A DNA stretch of 64,000 nt from Flavobacteriales bacterium (GCA_004213645.1 SGZF01000001.1:83062-147061), one strand, 5' to 3'; counted from the first letter of the stretch, positions 24,405 to 32,347 are shown. Notes: generated by a model from the sequence alone, not told the origin. Numbers and translations: made by a program.

Positions 24405-24902
24405 ATGAAAATTAGAGTCTTAGTAATATTATCATTATTAGTTTTATCCTGCAACAATACGAATAGTTCAAAGGAAAAGTTTACTTATGAAAGAACTAAA
24501 GAAGAGCCAGTTATTGTCCAAAATAATATGATCAACAATAATGTAACTCTTAACTCAAATGATCAGATGAAATTTGATAAAAAAATAATTAAAGTGAATT
24601 CAAATCAAAAGGTTACCATTACATTGAATCATACAGGCAGATTTCCTGCTGCCTCAATGGGTCACAATTTCGTTTTAGTTAAAAATGATGTGGATATAAA
24701 TGAATACGCACTTAGAGCTGCTGGAGCTAGAAATTCTGAATATATTCCAGAAGGAGAAAATGAAATAGCTTACACCAAAATGCTTGGGGGAGGAGAGTCT
24801 GATACTATTACCTTTGACGCACCAGAACCTGGAACTTATACTTTTATATGTTCTTTTCCAGGGCACTATCAGTTAATGATGGGTGAGTTTATAGTTGTCT
24901 AA
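24405..24902 (+). CDS. azurin-type cupredoxin, lipoprotein
   Basis: This is a blue-copper electron carrier of 165 residues. A lipoprotein signal ends at LVLSC (Cys16), followed by a flexible Asn/Lys-rich linker (17-45) and the azurin fold. Type 1 copper ligands are His87 (SMGHNFV), Cys149 and His154 (FICSFPGHYQL), with axial Met158. The protein should be tethered in the periplasm or at the outer membrane and pass electrons between dehydrogenases or cytochromes. It is convergent with, and 11 bp from, the small subunit of a GMC dehydrogenase, suggesting but not proving an electron-acceptor role for that enzyme. Confidence 0.93.
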   Translation: MKIRVLVILSLLVLSCNNTNSSKEKFTYERTKEEPVIVQNNMINNNVTLNSNDQMKFDKKIIKVNSNQKVTITLNHTGRFPAASMGHNFVLVKNDVDINEYALRAAGARNSEYIPEGENEIAYTKMLGGGESDTITFDAPEPGTYTFICSFPGHYQLMMGEFIVV

Positions 24903-24913
24903 TTTAATGCTAA

Positions 24914-25459
24914 TTAAACATCTACATTACCATCATAATATCCAGGAACAGGTACAAAACCTAATTTATTAGTCATTACATACTCTGTCATCTTGTAAGA
25001 TGTAACAGCCATTTCCCTAATTAATCCACATATTTCAGAGTAATTTTGACCATTATTTGAAATCATACTATAGTTATCAATGTGGTTAGAAAAATGTTTT
25101 TCTATAATTGAATCATCAATTTCATTAATTGACTTTCTACTCTCTGATTCAAGAATCATTTCAATAAAACCATCTATCATAGCAACAAGATATTTTTGAT
25201 CCTCAGTTCTTATATTTTTTGCTACATGTGCATCAACAAAATTAATTATGTTTAATGTTTTTGCACCTGGAGTTTCAGTCTCAGGAATAATTATTTCCAT
25301 AACTCTTTCCAAAAATCCTAAATGAGTGTTATTGAAAAATGAAAACTGTTGATTAAATTCATTAGTTTGACATGATTGAATAGTAGTAATTAATCCGGAT
25401 GATAATGATAACGAACCAAAAGCTAAACTTATTCTTTTAATAGCACCTCTTCTTTTCAT
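24914..25459 (-). CDS. gluconate 2-dehydrogenase subunit 3-family protein (small subunit of the GMC dehydrogenase)
   Basis: It has 181 residues. The N-terminus MKRRGAIKRISLAFGSLSLS is a twin-arginine signal (Arg3-Arg4), and IQSC at 27-30 is a possible lipobox. The body includes LERVMEIIIPETETPGA, the family's typical start. In known FAD glucose and gluconate dehydrogenases this subunit carries the Tat signal and brings the signal-less catalytic subunit across the membrane. Here the GMC gene is 1 bp upstream on the same strand and lacks a signal, matching that arrangement. Confidence 0.87.
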   Translation of the reverse strand: MKRRGAIKRISLAFGSLSLSSGLITTIQSCQTNEFNQQFSFFNNTHLGFLERVMEIIIPETETPGAKTLNIINFVDAHVAKNIRTEDQKYLVAMIDGFIEMILESESRKSINEIDDSIIEKHFSNHIDNYSMISNNGQNYSEICGLIREMAVTSYKMTEYVMTNKLGFVPVPGYYDGNVDV

Positions 25460-25460
25460 A

Positions 25461-27167
25461 TCAGATATTTAGTTTTTTTAATTCTTCAACAGCATGGCTT
25501 ACTGCTCTTGCAGTTAAGGCCATATAAGTTATAGATGGATTTTGATTTCCTGCAGAAGTCATACATGAACCATCTGTAACATATACATTTTTTACCTCAT
25601 GAATTTGATTATTACCATTTAGAACAGAAGTTTTAGGATCTCTTCCCATTCTTGCTGTCCCCATCTCATGAATTCCGTTACCAAAGATATATTTACTTTC
25701 CCATCCACTTACGTCCTCAAAACCTGCTCTTTCAAGCATTTCTTCAGCTTGAATCTTCATGTCTTTTCTCATGGTTATTTCATTCTCTCTAATCTTAGCG
25801 TCAAATGTTACTGTAGGTAATCCCCACTTGTCCTTTATCTCATAATTAAGACTCATTTTATTATCATGATATGGAAGGATCTCTCCAAATCCATTCATGC
25901 TAGCAGTCCACTCATCCCTTTTGACAATATTTTCTTTGAACCTTGGACCATATGAAATTAATTCTTCTGCACTATCTGAGACAGACATAAATCCCCTATT
26001 CGCACCACCTTGATATTGGTATCCTCTTATGTAGTCTTTTTGATCAGTAATTCCACCTATATTCCTAAATCTCGGTATATAGAACCCTGCAGGTTTTCTT
26101 CCATATGTTGTTTTATTTTTAAAACCTTTGTAGGTTCCTGATGCACCAACCTGAAAATGATGATCCATTATATTATGTCCTAATTCACCAGAGTCATTTC
26201 CCATTCCATTAGGAAATCTGTTTGATTTTGATTGCATTAAAATTGAAGTTGAGCCAACTGTTGATGAACAAAGGAAAATTACTTTAGCATAATATTCATA
26301 AGATTGATTATTTACTGAATCTATAACTCTTACTCCTGTAGCTCTTTTTTTATCCTCATCATATATAATTTCATGAACGATTGAATTAGGCATCAATGTC
26401 ATATTCCCTGTTGCTTCAGCAGCAGGGAGTGTTGAGGAATTACTACTAAAATAAGCACCATATGGACACCCTCTTATACATCTATTTCTATACTGGCATG
26501 TTACCCTCCCCAGTCCAGGTTTAGTTCCCTCAGTTATATGGGCTGTTCTTGCATTTGATAAAATTCTCCCATCATTAAAATTATTTGAAATACTTTCCCT
26601 CATATGTTGTTCAAGTATATTTAAATCAATAGGCTTTAGAAACTTACCATCAGGAAATTGAGGCAACCCCTCATACCTGCCTTGAACTCCAATATATTCT
26701 TCAACATAGTCATACCAGGGTGAAATATCTTTATATCTAATAGGCCAGTCAATGGCAATACCATCCTTTAAATTTCCTTCAAAATCAAATTCACTTAATC
26801 TATATGTATGTCTTCCCCAAGTTATTGACCTTCCTCCAACATGATACCCTCTAATCCAGTTAAATTTACTTTTGTCATCATTATAGGGATGATCAACATC
26901 GTCAACAAAAAAATGTCTTGAGGCTTCAGAATTTACGTATCCTGTCCTGCTTTGTTTAGGTGATCTTTTGCGAGCATCTTGAGTGATAGTGTTTCCTCCT
27001 TTAAAGTCCCATGGATTCATATTTGCAGTATGATAATCATCAACATGCTTGACCATTCTTCCTCTTTCAAGAACAAGAGTCTTAAGACCCTTCTCTGTTA
27101 GCTCTTTTGCAGCCCATCCGCCACTAATTCCAGTTCCAACTACAATTGCATCAAATTTATTTTCCAT
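25461..27167 (-). CDS. GMC-family FAD sugar/alcohol dehydrogenase, catalytic subunit
   Basis: It has 568 residues. The FAD Rossmann motif is VVGTGISGGWAAKEL (9-23) with the ribose-binding Glu near LVLERG (31-36). Catalytic His500 is in HEMGTARMG and Asn543 in NQNPSIT. Cys224, Cys230 and Cys234 (C-x5-C-x3-C, in CQYRNRCIRGCPYG) match the cysteine pattern that binds a 3Fe-4S cluster in FAD-dependent glucose dehydrogenase of Burkholderia cepacia. There is no signal peptide; export is probably with the Tat-signal small subunit. Likely reaction: oxidation of a sugar or glycoside hydroxyl, possibly C3 given the keto-sugar genes next door. Substrate unproven. Confidence 0.9.
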   Translation of the reverse strand: MENKFDAIVVGTGISGGWAAKELTEKGLKTLVLERGRMVKHVDDYHTANMNPWDFKGGNTITQDARKRSPKQSRTGYVNSEASRHFFVDDVDHPYNDDKSKFNWIRGYHVGGRSITWGRHTYRLSEFDFEGNLKDGIAIDWPIRYKDISPWYDYVEEYIGVQGRYEGLPQFPDGKFLKPIDLNILEQHMRESISNNFNDGRILSNARTAHITEGTKPGLGRVTCQYRNRCIRGCPYGAYFSSNSSTLPAAEATGNMTLMPNSIVHEIIYDEDKKRATGVRVIDSVNNQSYEYYAKVIFLCSSTVGSTSILMQSKSNRFPNGMGNDSGELGHNIMDHHFQVGASGTYKGFKNKTTYGRKPAGFYIPRFRNIGGITDQKDYIRGYQYQGGANRGFMSVSDSAEELISYGPRFKENIVKRDEWTASMNGFGEILPYHDNKMSLNYEIKDKWGLPTVTFDAKIRENEITMRKDMKIQAEEMLERAGFEDVSGWESKYIFGNGIHEMGTARMGRDPKTSVLNGNNQIHEVKNVYVTDGSCMTSAGNQNPSITYMALTARAVSHAVEELKKLNI

Positions 27168-27198
27168 AATTATTTAGAAATCAATTCTAATTTAAACA

Positions 27199-27229
27199 TT
27201 AAATAATTAAATAATAATTAATTATTTAA
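27199..27229. repeat. 12-bp inverted repeat in the divergent GMC / isomerase promoter region
   Basis: TTAAATAATTAA (27199-27210) and TTAATTATTTAA (27218-27229) are exact reverse complements with a 7-base spacer. They lie midway between two divergent starts (27167 minus, 27263 plus), where an operator would be expected. The sequence is entirely A/T, so chance cannot be excluded. I found no clear TAnnTTTG box in this 95-bp gap. Confidence 0.5.
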
Positions 27230-27262
27230 ATTTATATTTATAGAAGTCTTAAAATATTTTAT

Positions 27263-28219
27263 ATGAAAAGGAAAAAATTTATAAAACTTGCTTCAACAGG
27301 AGCGATTGGTATTTCATCTTTGGGGTATATGTCATTTTCTAAACCTAAAGATTTATTTTTTAAGTTATCATTAGCTCAGTGGTCTCTTCATAGGAATATT
27401 AAATATGGGAATATGAATCCCTATAAATTTGCTGAGTTTGCTAGTAATAATAACTTTAGTGGAATTGAATACGTTACTGCATTATATGATGACGTCATGG
27501 AGGTCAGAAATGCTGATATGGTTAGGGCTATTACATTCTGGGCAAGAAAAAATAAAGAGTTAGCAGATCAAAATAATATTAAAAATGTTTTAATAATGAT
27601 TGATGAACTAGAAGCTTTAGCAGATCCAAATCAATCAAACAGAAATAAGGCTATTGAAAACCATAAAATGTGGATTGATGCTGCTGCTATTATGAATTGT
27701 GAATCTGTAAGACTTAACTTGTACGGGTCAAGCAATGTTAAAATATGGAAAGAACTTTCCATGGAAAGTTTATCAAATTTAGGGGAGTATGCAAAAAAGA
27801 TCGGTATAAATGTAATGGTTGAAAATCATGGAAGAATAACTTCAAACATTCCAGAACTTATGAAAGTTATAAATGGTGTAAATATGGATAATGTTGGAAC
27901 TCTTCCTGATTTTGGTAATTTCTGTATGGCAGATGAAGGATATGGATCTGTTTTTGATGGAGCATGCGAGGAAGCTTATGATTTTTATAAAGGAGTGGGA
28001 GAAATGATGCCAAAAGCATTTGCAGTTAGTGCAAAATCAAATGATTTTGATTTAAATGGCTATGAAACAACAATTGATTATACTAAAATGTTAAAAATTG
28101 TCAAAGAATATGATTATACTGGTTTCATTGGAGTTGAATATGAAGGTAACAGACTTACTGAATTACAAGGAATTAAAGCAACTAGAGACTTATTAATTAA
28201 AATTGGACAAACAATATAA
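27263..28219 (+). CDS. TIM-barrel sugar isomerase/epimerase-like protein, exported
   Basis: This is a 318-residue protein of the xylose isomerase-like TIM-barrel family (AP endonuclease family 2 fold). The N-terminus MKRKKFIKLASTGAIGISSLG looks like a Tat signal but with RK in place of RR, so Tat or Sec export are both possible. Metal-binding-type segments include IEYVTALYDD, MVENHGRIT (Glu near 187), TLPDFGN and the C-terminal GFIGVEYEG. Related proteins isomerise or beta-eliminate 3-keto sugars, or act as hydroxypyruvate isomerases. First gene of the rightward run. Confidence 0.85.
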   Translation: MKRKKFIKLASTGAIGISSLGYMSFSKPKDLFFKLSLAQWSLHRNIKYGNMNPYKFAEFASNNNFSGIEYVTALYDDVMEVRNADMVRAITFWARKNKELADQNNIKNVLIMIDELEALADPNQSNRNKAIENHKMWIDAAAIMNCESVRLNLYGSSNVKIWKELSMESLSNLGEYAKKIGINVMVENHGRITSNIPELMKVINGVNMDNVGTLPDFGNFCMADEGYGSVFDGACEEAYDFYKGVGEMMPKAFAVSAKSNDFDLNGYETTIDYTKMLKIVKEYDYTGFIGVEYEGNRLTELQGIKATRDLLIKIGQTI

Positions 28220-28225
28220 TATAAA

Positions 28226-29434
28226 ATGAATAAAACAATAAACTTAAAATTAAGTGTAATGATGTTTCTAGAGTTTTTTATCTGGGGATGTTGGTTTGTT
28301 ACAATGGGAACATTTCTTTCTCAAGCTTTTAATGCTTCAGGTGGAGAAATTGGCTTAGCATATGAGACTCAATCATGGGGTGCTATAATTGCTCCGTTTA
28401 TTATAGGTTTGATAGCAGATCGTTATTTTGATGCTGAAAAAATTCTTGCTTTAATCCATATTTTGGGAGGAGGGCTTTTATTTATGTGTTCTATTGCTCT
28501 TGGTTTTGATAAGTTTTATCCATATATATTGATTTATATGATTTTATATATGCCTACACTCGCGCTTGTCAACTCTATTGCATTTAGACAAATGAAAGAT
28601 CCTTCAAAAGAGTTTCCAAAAATTAGAGTATGGGGAACGGTTGGGTGGATTGTAGCTGGTCTTGTAATAAGTTATGGAGTTGGCTGGGAAACTAGTCAAA
28701 CATTAGAATATACTTTTTATCTTTCAGCAATAGTGTCAGTTTCTCTTGGTCTATTTAGCTTTACTTTGCCAAAAACTCCACCAAAGGCAACAAATGAAAG
28801 CCCAAGTCTTAGAGAGATTCTTGGACTAGATGCTTTAATGCTTTTAAAAGATTCTCGATATCTAGTTTTTTTTATTTCATCTATACTTATATGTATTCCT
28901 CTTGCATTTTACTATCAAGATGCAAATCTATTTTTAAATGAGTTAGGTATGGAAAACGCAGCTGGAGTTATGACACTTGGTCAAATTTCTGAGGCATTAT
29001 TCATTCTGTTACTTCCTCTTTTTTTAAATAAATATGGGATAAAGAAAACTTTAATTGTTGGAATGTTAGCGTGGAGTTTGAGATATGTTTTATTTGCATT
29101 TGGAGATACTGGATCAAATATTTGGATGTTAATTTTTGGAATTGTGCTACACGGCATATGTTATGACTTTTTCTTTGTTTCTGGTCAAATTTATACTGAT
29201 TACAAAGCAGGTGAAAAATATAAAAGTGCTGCTCAAGGACTAATTGCACTTGCTACATATGGAGTTGGAATGTTAATCGGTTTTAGATTAGCGGGAAGGA
29301 TTACTGATATGTTTATCACTGATTCAGGGCACGATTGGACTCAAATATGGACTTATCCCGCAATTTTTGCTGCAATTGTACTCGTGATTTTTATTCTAAC
29401 ATTTAAAAACGAAAAAATAGAAATTGAAAAATAA
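28226..29434 (+). CDS. NupG-like MFS permease
   Basis: It has 402 residues and 12 predicted transmembrane helices. The start LKLSVMMFLEFFIWGCWFVTMGTFL and the segment FRQMKDPSKEFPKIRVWGTVGWI are characteristic of the nucleoside:H+ symporter (NupG/XapB) branch of MFS. In Bacteroidota, members often sit beside Gfo/Idh and TIM-barrel isomerase genes, so a sugar-like substrate is as likely as a nucleoside here. It lies 6 bp after the first isomerase and overlaps the next gene by 11 bp. Confidence 0.88.
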   Translation: MNKTINLKLSVMMFLEFFIWGCWFVTMGTFLSQAFNASGGEIGLAYETQSWGAIIAPFIIGLIADRYFDAEKILALIHILGGGLLFMCSIALGFDKFYPYILIYMILYMPTLALVNSIAFRQMKDPSKEFPKIRVWGTVGWIVAGLVISYGVGWETSQTLEYTFYLSAIVSVSLGLFSFTLPKTPPKATNESPSLREILGLDALMLLKDSRYLVFFISSILICIPLAFYYQDANLFLNELGMENAAGVMTLGQISEALFILLLPLFLNKYGIKKTLIVGMLAWSLRYVLFAFGDTGSNIWMLIFGIVLHGICYDFFFVSGQIYTDYKAGEKYKSAAQGLIALATYGVGMLIGFRLAGRITDMFITDSGHDWTQIWTYPAIFAAIVLVIFILTFKNEKIEIEK

Positions 29435-30566
29435 AATTAGACTAGGAATTTTAGGTGGCGGTGGAGACTCATTAATTGGAATTGTCCATAGAATAGCTTC
29501 TAATATGCATGATAATTATGAAATAATTGGTGGTGTTTTTAATCCAAACTTTTCAGAAAATGTTAAGTTTGGAAAAGAAATAGGCCTTAACGAAAATAGA
29601 ATTTACCAGGACTACGAAAAGATGATTGAAGAAGAGTTAAAATTGGATAAGAGTGAAAGGATGGAAGTTGTATCTATATTAACTCCTAATTTTCTCCACT
29701 ACCCAATGGCAAAAAAACTTCTCGAGAATAATTTTAATGTCATCTGTGAAAAACCAATGACAACTACCTTCGAAGAGGCGCTTGAATTAGACCAAATTTA
29801 CAAATCTAAAAAATTAACTTTTGCAGTTACATACACCTATACTGGCTATCCAATGATTAGACAGATGAAAGAGATGATTAAAGAGGGTGTTATAGGCGAA
29901 ATACAAAGAGTTGATCTTCAATACTATCAAGGATGGATTAACCCTGTAATTCATAATGAGAATAAAAGATCTCAAACCTGGAGACTTCAACCTGATAAAT
30001 CTGGAATTAGTTGTTGTATTGGAGATATTGGAACTCATGCTTTTGATATGTTAGAATACGTAACAGGTATGGAAGTAAAAGAACTACTATCTGATTTAAA
30101 TTATTTATATGATGACAACTCAATGGATGTGGATGGCACAATTCTGGTAAGATTTTCTGATAAGATTAAAGGAGTCATTAGGACAAGTCAAATTGCAACT
30201 GGAGAAGAAAATTCTCTAAAAGTTTCAATATACGGAAGAAAAGGAGGCCTTAAATGGGAGCAAGAAAATCCCAATTATCTTTATCATTTAAGTGAATCTG
30301 AACCACTTAAAATTTTAAAACCAGGACACGATTATAATTCTGATTTTTCAAGAATTTCTTCTAAATTACCTCCTGGTCATCCTGAGGGAATGTTTGATTC
30401 AATGGCTAATATATATAATGGGGTTGCAAGAGAAATTAAAGGTAAAAAAGAATTTGAAGGTGAATATCCAACTTTAAATGATGGTTTAAGGGGAATGCTT
30501 TTCATTGAGAAGGCAGTTGAATCCCACAAAAATGGAAATACTTGGGTCAAACTTAATAGAAACTAA
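29424..30566 (+). CDS. Gfo/Idh/MocA-family oxidoreductase
   Basis: This is a 380-residue NAD(P)-dependent sugar oxidoreductase. The Rossmann start is IRLGILGGGGDSLIG (5-19); the family motif EKP is in ICEKPMTTT, and GDIGTHAFDMLEYV supplies the conserved Asp/His of the active site. The start is a TTG at 29424, inside the end of the MFS gene, which suggests translational coupling. No signal peptide, so it is cytoplasmic. It could reduce an imported keto-sugar or oxidise an inositol-like sugar. Confidence 0.9.
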   Translation: MKNKIRLGILGGGGDSLIGIVHRIASNMHDNYEIIGGVFNPNFSENVKFGKEIGLNENRIYQDYEKMIEEELKLDKSERMEVVSILTPNFLHYPMAKKLLENNFNVICEKPMTTTFEEALELDQIYKSKKLTFAVTYTYTGYPMIRQMKEMIKEGVIGEIQRVDLQYYQGWINPVIHNENKRSQTWRLQPDKSGISCCIGDIGTHAFDMLEYVTGMEVKELLSDLNYLYDDNSMDVDGTILVRFSDKIKGVIRTSQIATGEENSLKVSIYGRKGGLKWEQENPNYLYHLSESEPLKILKPGHDYNSDFSRISSKLPPGHPEGMFDSMANIYNGVAREIKGKKEFEGEYPTLNDGLRGMLFIEKAVESHKNGNTWVKLNRN

Positions 30567-30568
30567 AA

Positions 30569-31621
30569 ATGAAAACAATAAAAGGACCTGCAGTTTTTTT
30601 AGCTCAATTTGTAGACAAATCTCCACCATTTGATTCGTTAGATGGGATTTGTAAGTGGGCTTCTAAACTTGGCTATAAAGGAATTCAAATTCCTACTTGG
30701 GAAAGCTCACTAATTGATTTAGATAAAGCATCTGATAGTCAAGATTATTGTGATGAATTGTTGGGAAAAATTAAATCTTATGGGCTAGAAATTACCGAGC
30801 TATCAACTCATCTTCAGGGACAATTAGTTGCGGTTCATCCTGCATATGACCTAATGTTTGATAATTTTGCACCGAATAATCTAAAGAAAAAACCAAAGGA
30901 AAGGACAGATTGGGCAATTGAAACAGTTAAAAAGGCGGCTATTGCAAGTAGACGTCTTGGATTAAAATCACATGCAACTTTTTCAGGTGCACTTTTATGG
31001 CATACATGGCATCCTTGGCCACAAGCTCCAAAAGGGCTTGTTAAAATGGGGTTTGAGGAATTAGCTAAAAGATGGCTTCCAATTTTAAATGTGTTTGATG
31101 AAAATGGCATTGATATTTGTTACGAAATTCATCCTGGTGAGGATCTTCATGATGGAGTCACTTTTGAAAAATTCTTAAAAGCGACTAATAATCATAAAAG
31201 GGTCAATATTCTTTATGATCCTAGTCATTTTATACTTCAACAACTCGACTATATTGAATATATAGACCATTATCATGAATTTATAAAATCTTTTCATGTT
31301 AAAGATGCTGAGTTCAACCCTACCGGCAAAAAAGGAATGTTTGGAGGTTATCTTGATTGGGCTGATAGAGCTGGAAGATACAGGTCACTTGGAGATGGTC
31401 AAATTGATTTCAAAACAATATTCTCAAAGCTGACCCAATATGGCTGTGATTTATGGGCAGTAATGGAATGGGAATGCTGTATTAAAAGTCCTGAACAAGG
31501 AGCAACTGAGGGAGCAAAATTTATTCAAGATTTAATCATAAATTGTACAACGAAAAAATTTGATGATTTTGCTGGAGGAAAAGCTAATGATGATGACTTA
31601 AAAACAATTTTAAATATTTAA
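30569..31621 (+). CDS. cytoplasmic TIM-barrel sugar isomerase/epimerase
   Basis: This is a 350-residue xylose isomerase-like TIM barrel without a signal peptide. Metal-site segments are ICYEIHPGEDLHDG (Glu near 188), ILYDPSHFIL, SFHVKDAEF and WAVMEWECC. It is a distant relative of the exported isomerase at 27263, so the locus has one barrel on each side of the membrane. Close family members are annotated as sugar phosphate isomerase/epimerase, but this one probably acts on a non-phosphorylated keto-sugar (inference from neighbours). Confidence 0.87.
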   Translation: MKTIKGPAVFLAQFVDKSPPFDSLDGICKWASKLGYKGIQIPTWESSLIDLDKASDSQDYCDELLGKIKSYGLEITELSTHLQGQLVAVHPAYDLMFDNFAPNNLKKKPKERTDWAIETVKKAAIASRRLGLKSHATFSGALLWHTWHPWPQAPKGLVKMGFEELAKRWLPILNVFDENGIDICYEIHPGEDLHDGVTFEKFLKATNNHKRVNILYDPSHFILQQLDYIEYIDHYHEFIKSFHVKDAEFNPTGKKGMFGGYLDWADRAGRYRSLGDGQIDFKTIFSKLTQYGCDLWAVMEWECCIKSPEQGATEGAKFIQDLIINCTTKKFDDFAGGKANDDDLKTILNI

Positions 31622-31624
31622 ACT

Positions 31625-32347
31625 ATGAAAAAAACTATATATATTTTGACACTAATTTTATCAACTAATTTTTCACTTTTTTCTCAAGAAAGTAATTGGA
31701 CTGATCTTTTTAATGGAGAAAATCTTGATGGTTGGCATACTTACAACAAGAATGTTAAGAAAAAAATTAAAAAATGGTATGTTGAAAATGGCGAATTAAT
31801 TTTGGATTCTAATAATGATAATATTAGTCGTGGCAATGATATTGTGACAAATAAAAAGTATACAAATTTTGAATTATCAATTGAATGGAATATTCCTTTT
31901 GGAGGTAATAGTGGAGTAATGTTTGGAGTTGAGGAAATAAAAGGAATGGGAGAGCCTTGGCAAACAGGTCCAGAAATTCAAGTTTTAGATAATGATAATT
32001 TTGCAGATGGTAATTCTCTAGCTATACACTTAGCTCCTGCGTTATATGATTTAAAACCTGTTGATCAAATTGAATATAATTCCTATGGAAAATGGAATCA
32101 CCTACTTCTTAAAATTGATCATGATAATAATTTAGGTTCAATAACCTTTAATGGAAACTTTGTTTATTCATTTGCCTTGTCTGGTCCAGAATGGGATAAA
32201 ATGATTTCTAAATCTAAATTTAACAACCCTTCTCATCCACAATATGTAATTGCGCCGCTTTTTGGAAAATTTAAAACTGGCAAAATTGCTCTACAAGATC
32301 ATGGTTTTGCTGTCAGATATAGAAATATTAAAATTAGAGAACTATAA
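31625..32347 (+). CDS. DUF1080 / 3-keto-disaccharide hydrolase family protein, secreted
   Basis: It has 240 residues with a Sec signal peptide (cleavage near FSLFS-QE, residue 21) and one DUF1080 jelly-roll domain. Typical signatures are WTDLFNGENLDGWHTY (25-40) and NSGVMFGVEE, and the C-terminal FAVRYRNIKIREL. The family (Pfam PF06439) has been renamed 3-keto-disaccharide hydrolase; characterised members cleave 3-keto-glycosides. It lies 3 bp after the isomerase and would act in the periplasm on the product of the GMC dehydrogenase. Confidence 0.9.
   Translation: MKKTIYILTLILSTNFSLFSQESNWTDLFNGENLDGWHTYNKNVKKKIKKWYVENGELILDSNNDNISRGNDIVTNKKYTNFELSIEWNIPFGGNSGVMFGVEEIKGMGEPWQTGPEIQVLDNDNFADGNSLAIHLAPALYDLKPVDQIEYNSYGKWNHLLLKIDHDNNLGSITFNGNFVYSFALSGPEWDKMISKSKFNNPSHPQYVIAPLFGKFKTGKIALQDHGFAVRYRNIKIREL

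Follow-up and report, generated by a model that had tools for sequence, protein, structure and literature searches.

A flavobacterial gene cluster proposed to open glycosidic bonds by oxidation and elimination

The window analysed here is a 64,000-nucleotide stretch of DNA from a Flavobacteriales bacterium (GCA_004213645.1, SGZF01000001.1:83062-147061), and positions 24,405 to 32,347 of it carry a cluster of eight genes (Table 1). It is very likely that this cluster serves glycoside utilisation in four chemical steps: oxidation, elimination, hydration and reduction. The first-pass annotation had proposed that the genes form a single route in which glycosidic bonds are opened by oxidation and elimination. 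That proposal is well supported by a hydratase gene closely related to a solved enzyme and by the co-inheritance and co-localisation of the GMC dehydrogenase pair, the first TIM-barrel gene (TIM barrel 1), the Gfo/Idh/MocA gene (Gfo) and the hydratase gene.

The hydratase gene names the pathway, because the substrate of the enzyme is formed when a C3-oxidised glucoside is cleaved by elimination. The encoded protein, TIM barrel 2, is identical at 215 of 341 aligned positions (63%) to PDB entry 8ro4, deposited as 2-hydroxy-3-keto-glucal hydratase. Residues E186, H188, D217, H243 and E300 show no variation in an alignment across four classes. By this orthology, the gene is assigned as a 2-hydroxy-3-keto-glucal hydratase, probably not an isomerase, and its product is placed in the cytoplasm. 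In Agrobacterium tumefaciens, the hydratase acts after the C3 dehydrogenase and the lyase and before the Gfo reductase, although its role there was called preliminary (PMC10628242). The two TIM-barrel proteins of the window had been annotated as isomerases. Their family (PF01261) is retained but the isomerase role is not, considering the orthology of the hydratase and the fold of TIM barrel 1, which lies near C-glycoside eliminases; both proteins are probably not isomerases. Kastner et al. (Angewandte, 2024) reportedly established the role of the hydratase and described a Bacteroides lyase that is a DUF1080 protein.

Co-occurrence was counted across 251 genomes of Flavobacteriaceae, a set that comes close to one genome per genus, with no account taken of kinship. 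GMC matches were accepted at E values up to 1e-150 and TIM barrel 1 matches at E values up to 1e-40, and one spurious weak hydratase match was removed. The hydratase was found in 136 genomes, GMC in 143 and TIM barrel 1 in 135; all three are present in 127 of the 251 and none in 103. Hydratase and GMC are both present in 131 genomes and both absent from 103, with the hydratase alone in 5 and GMC alone in 12 (odds ratio 225, uncorrected for kinship). The corresponding numbers for hydratase and TIM barrel 1 are 130 with both, 110 with neither, 6 with the hydratase alone and 5 with TIM barrel 1 alone (odds ratio 477, likewise uncorrected). This association is far beyond chance, and the cluster is conserved in roughly half of the genera sampled from the family. 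Co-occurrence in relatives had been named in advance as a test capable of refuting the proposal; it was run, and the GMC, hydratase and TIM barrel 1 genes are mostly present or absent together.

Gene order is conserved as well. In most loci examined from the genus and the family, the small subunit and GMC genes point leftward and are followed by TIM barrel 1, permease, Gfo, hydratase and DUF1080, all pointing rightward. Similar partners in different orders are found on plasmids of Pseudoalteromonas, Hymenobacter, Croceicoccus and Ketogulonicigenium. The Gfo protein of the window is 34-40% identical to the hydratase-adjacent Gfo protein in six plasmid loci of other classes.

The GMC pair is proposed to be a glycoside 3-dehydrogenase. 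The large subunit aligns over its full length with the large subunits of fructose and glucose dehydrogenases, including the pair H500/N543. C224, C230 and C234 align with cysteines of solved dehydrogenases, and we take them to be iron-sulfur ligands. The azurin scores just above the cut-off of its model (105.2 against 105.1 bits for TIGR02695), carries the motif of type-1 copper ligands (H87, C149, H154 and M158) and is the probable electron acceptor for the GMC dehydrogenase. Near the small subunit, 32 loci encode azurin, 8 encode a small c-type cytochrome and 8 encode both, a few records occurring twice under different locus identifiers. All 8 loci with both carriers belong to the genus of the window. 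Neither carrier was found near the small subunit in 88 loci, 42 of which end at the edge of the stretch. In the window, no gene for a CxxCH cytochrome was found next to the GMC pair and azurin is there instead, and the Hymenobacter cluster contains a c-type cytochrome gene. Azurin and c-type cytochrome share one slot, in keeping with a role in carrying electrons from the dehydrogenase. The suggestion that azurin takes the electrons is consistent with this shared slot, but azurin is not an obligatory part, since a c-type cytochrome replaces it in some relatives. A second GMC pair with a small subunit bearing a twin-arginine translocation (Tat) signal is present in the same genome as the cluster (G000:C27; L028:4552-6983); its GMC protein is 30% identical, and the pair adjoins cutC and an aconitase gene. 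A cutC gene is also present near the hydratase cluster in Pseudoalteromonas (L138).

Export signals divide the proteins into two groups. The small subunit starts with MKRRGAIKR and its relatives open with M(D/E)RR, a Tat-type signal. In the flavin adenine dinucleotide-dependent glucose and fructose dehydrogenases, the large subunit is exported along with a signal-bearing small subunit. By analogy, the GMC large subunit, which has no signal of its own, is probably exported in the same way. Relatives of TIM barrel 1 and of the DUF1080 protein have lipoprotein or Tat-type signals, although the start of TIM barrel 1 in the window (MKRKKF) is weaker. The hydratase and Gfo begin straight with their domains and have no signal. 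From this distribution we infer that oxidation and cleavage would be periplasmic and hydration and reduction cytoplasmic, with the permease between the two compartments.

The DUF1080 protein is proposed to be an exported 3-keto-glycoside lyase. Residues E117, Q119, D122, Q224 and H226 are invariant in 25 sequences and lie in a D/E-rich motif and a QDHG motif, with minor variation at D225. A characterised Bacteroides enzyme acting on 3-keto-O-glycosides is an eliminating lyase and not a true hydrolase, and its His275 variant is hydration-deficient (PMC13273386). The earlier label of DUF1080 hydrolase is kept for the family (PF06439), and the activity is proposed to be that of a lyase. At least one DUF1080 match is present in each of the 25 genomes of the genus. 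A tandem pair of DUF1080 genes follows the hydratase in many members (L029, L032 and L040-L045), and a single gene is found in the species of the window and in L030. A second DUF1080 protein, 27% identical, is encoded away from the cluster (G000:C21; L027:1122-1910).

TIM barrel 1 is a candidate for a second exported 3-keto-glycoside lyase, because it appears to be exported and its fold is near that of C-glycoside eliminases. Its AlphaFold2 model has a predicted local distance difference test (pLDDT) score of 93.9. The closest solved fold is the uncharacterised 4ovx, followed by C-glycoside eliminases (DgpC and its relatives), which rank ahead of tagatose 3-epimerases; AtOGE is not among the fold matches listed. 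In larger flavobacterial genomes, an extra TIM-barrel gene with a Tat signal and about 305 residues stands directly after the GMC small subunit (L153:1731-2645 and L181:3096-4019), with below-cut-off matches to hydroxypyruvate isomerase.

Gfo is proposed to be the 3-keto-glucose reductase. It was not accepted as a dehydrogenase of the levoglucosan or BT type, because the NCBIfam cut-offs were not reached: 93.6 of 650 bits for levoglucosan dehydrogenase, 34 of 750 for BT_2158 and 21 of 650 for BT_2159. The permease had been described as a NupG-like importer. It belongs to the Nuc_H_symport family, but it was rejected as a nucleoside permease, as it scores 392.1 bits against TIGR00889 (cut-off 446.1). 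It is proposed to be a keto-sugar importer. The DUF1080 protein and the GMC small subunit matched no named model in the NCBIfam search.

The proposed pathway would run as follows. The Tat-exported GMC enzyme with its small subunit would oxidise C3 of a glucosyl or similar residue in the periplasm and pass the electrons to azurin. This would acidify C2-H, and the exported DUF1080 lyase would expel the aglycone by elimination. The exported TIM barrel 1 may act likewise on the opposite anomer or on another substrate. The resulting 2-hydroxy-3-keto-glucal, or 3-keto-glucose, would be taken up by the permease. The cytoplasmic hydratase would add water to yield 3-keto-glucose, which the Gfo/Idh/MocA enzyme would reduce to glucose.

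Other explanations of the cluster were considered. It is very unlikely that the genes are together merely through the conserved gene order of this chromosome region, with the GMC pair and azurin serving another process. Unrelated neighbours (metB, EamA, yicC and gmk) are also retained beside the cluster in many relatives, so synteny accounts for part of the pattern. However, the gene set is intact where these neighbours were not found (for example, L123, L127-L131, L133, L135 and L136), it is present or absent as a unit, and plasmids of other classes carry it too, with the genes arranged differently. Synteny alone was rejected on the basis of these loci and the set-wise presence and absence. 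It is also unlikely that the locus oxidises a free sugar, a polyol or inositol, with the TIM barrels and Gfo catalysing isomerisation of the inositol or tagatose type and no glycoside being cleaved. The two families are indeed common to inositol catabolism (IolE and IolG, with weak NCBIfam matches) and to 3-epimerases. Nevertheless, the hydratase is only weakly IolE-like (57.8 bits against a cut-off of 290) beside its close match to 3-keto-glucal hydratase, and a DUF1080 protein lies within the set in most loci. Glycoside utilisation by oxidation and elimination has points against it too. The lyase roles of the DUF1080 protein and TIM barrel 1 rest on family and fold. The GMC protein is distantly similar to the solved fructose and glucose dehydrogenases, so that its C3 regiospecificity rests on context. 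Gfo falls far below the cut-offs of the levoglucosan and BT_2158 dehydrogenase models, and the co-occurrence counts ignore phylogeny. In some plasmid loci of Rhizobium and Azospirillum, hydratase and Gfo genes stand beside ABC transporters with no GMC gene in the stretch shown, indicating that the GMC pair is not universal.

Within the oxidative route, there is a substantial chance, somewhat short of even, that the DUF1080 protein is the sole lyase and that TIM barrel 1 takes no part in cleavage, serving instead as an accessory protein of a binding or epimerase-like type. Five loci (L155, L159, L164, L170 and L172) have neither TIM barrel 1 nor the permease and keep the GMC pair, Gfo, hydratase and DUF1080, which suggests that TIM barrel 1 is accessory. 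Besides, the position of the probable metal-binding His on beta-7, where the hydratase has a His, corresponds to an invariant Ser256 in TIM barrel 1, an equivalence judged by eye. On the other side, E187-x-H189, D216 and E292 are invariant in 44 TIM barrel 1 sequences and resemble the metal-binding and catalytic residues described for C-glycoside eliminases. Taking TIM barrel 1 as a lyase, a broader and rather doubtful proposal can be made. TIM barrel 1 would be the first of a family of exported 3-keto-glycoside lyases whose metal site is altered by Ser in place of the usual beta-7 His, working beside the periplasmic DUF1080 protein. Blue-copper and haem proteins would serve interchangeably as acceptors of electrons from the dehydrogenase. 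Swapping of the exported enzymes between species would alter substrate range, with the cytoplasmic hydratase and reductase fixed.

Variation within the genus bears on the last part of this proposal. Members of the genus share 83-93% identity with the window in the hydratase and, in full copies, 84-95% in Gfo and the permease. The corresponding range is 70-92% in GMC, 36-76% in the small subunit, 61-78% in TIM barrel 1 and 46-97% in DUF1080. Variation is greatest in the exported enzymes, as expected if substrate range differs among species. In gene trees, the hydratase and DUF1080 (97% identical) place the window with L030, but GMC places it with L037 and L038. Trees forced to the other grouping fit far worse (approximately unbiased test, p = 2e-5 for GMC, 7e-74 for DUF1080 and 0.016 for the hydratase). 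Because the groups were named with the trees already in view, and because tandem paralogues of DUF1080 exist, this evidence does no more than suggest a mosaic of exported enzymes within the genus, as if they had been exchanged between species. In another member of the genus (G001; L023, L024 and L029), the hydratase, GMC and small-subunit genes are broken by apparent frameshifts, perhaps sequencing errors.

All eight genes of the first-pass annotation were recovered in the open reading frame listing at the positions in Table 1, and the family calls hold at the Pfam level. The five rightward genes are on the same strand, separated by 6 bases or fewer or overlapping by 11 bases. The GMC pair is divergent from them across a 95-base gap, and the azurin gene is convergent with the GMC pair. 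The Gfo gene begins at TTG, a start backed by relatives that open with MPKKIRLG. A promoter and terminator scan found sites no commoner than in shuffles. The genes yicC and gmk are located downstream of the DUF1080 gene. In L033 and L035-L038, there is no yicC match between DUF1080 and gmk and the space is too short for it; yicC appears to have been lost.

Table 1. Genes of the cluster, with positions counted from the first base of the window.
Gene product	Position	Strand	Supporting matches and features
Azurin-type cupredoxin lipoprotein	24405-24902	+	Copper-bind (PF00127) 6e-16; TIGR02695; lipobox-like LVLSC at residue 16
GMC small subunit (Gluconate_2-dh3 family)	24914-25459	-	PF13618 9e-13; N-terminus MKRRGAIKRISLAFG
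GMC flavin dehydrogenase large subunit	25461-27167	-	PF05199 4e-21; PF00732 2e-12
TIM barrel 1	27263-28219	+	PF01261 2e-21
MFS permease, Nuc_H_symport family	28226-29434	+	PF03825 8e-121
Gfo/Idh/MocA oxidoreductase	29424-30566	+	PF01408 and PF22725; 3v5n match E 1e-92
TIM barrel 2, 2-hydroxy-3-keto-glucal hydratase (AtHYD-like)	30569-31621	+	PF01261 7e-37; 8ro4 E 4e-157
DUF1080 protein	31625-32347	+	PF06439 3e-36; solved DUF1080 relatives

The source genome is a draft of 1.04 Mb that is 78% complete, and the two genomes of highest completeness in the genus (92% and 95%) measure about 1.2 Mb. No glycoside hydrolase or SusCD pair had been noted in the window, and this does not extend to the genome. 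Of the 25 genomes of the genus, 21 encode GH3 proteins and 20 encode SusD-like proteins; the genome of the window is among them, and both kinds of protein lie elsewhere in it. Thus, the pathway is considered to complement ordinary hydrolases. Literature searches returned nothing relevant on this pathway in marine flavobacteria. On our reading, the range of a recently discovered, non-hydrolytic mode of cleaving glycosidic bonds would widen to marine flavobacteria with small genomes (~1.2 Mb) and to roughly half of the sampled genera of Flavobacteriaceae. Annotations often call genes of this sort isomerases, generic GMC enzymes or nucleoside permeases, so the capacity for glycoside use is easily overlooked when marine carbon cycling is surveyed. 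For testing, the cluster supplies a set of defined enzymes together with a single electron carrier.

Several known systems resemble the cluster. The lactose dehydrogenase of Caulobacter has a cytochrome component, LacB; the window cluster has no cytochrome gene, and azurin takes the electron-carrier slot. Nasseri et al. (Nature, 2024; cited in PMC12291463) reportedly describe a broad-specificity pathway. A lactose route with LacABC and a DUF1080 protein is described in Caulobacter and Pedobacter (PMC9007349). The four-enzyme O-glucoside pathway of A. tumefaciens (GlycDH, OGE, HYD and Gfo; PMC10628242) shares with our proposal C3 oxidation, elimination, hydration and reduction, and a flavin dehydrogenase, Gfo and TIM barrels in one locus. 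The window differs in that cleavage is assigned to the exported DUF1080 protein and TIM barrel 1, azurin lies by the dehydrogenase, and there are two divergent transcription units. Bacteroides thetaiotaomicron (BT2157-BT2159) has a DUF1080 protein acting on 3-keto-glycosides (BT2157; PMC9007349), but the cluster falls short of the BT_2158 and BT_2159 dehydrogenase models, and oxidation is proposed to be the work of a flavin GMC enzyme instead. The bacterial levoglucosan pathway is alike in its proposed chemical logic and in its Gfo and TIM-barrel partners (PMC10628242); the cluster falls short of the levoglucosan dehydrogenase model, and the GMC flavoenzyme is the proposed dehydrogenase. The C-glycoside eliminases DgpB/DgpC and DfgA/DfgB share with TIM barrel 1 the fold and the E-x-H, Asp and Glu residues. 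TIM barrel 1 is, however, ~17% identical to them, apparently exported, has Ser for one probable metal-binding His and has no beta subunit in its locus. The pathway is not new in kind, as its chemistry and gene set are already known (PMC10628242, PMC9007349). Its less ordinary features are the exchange of azurin for cytochrome and a possible second exported lyase.

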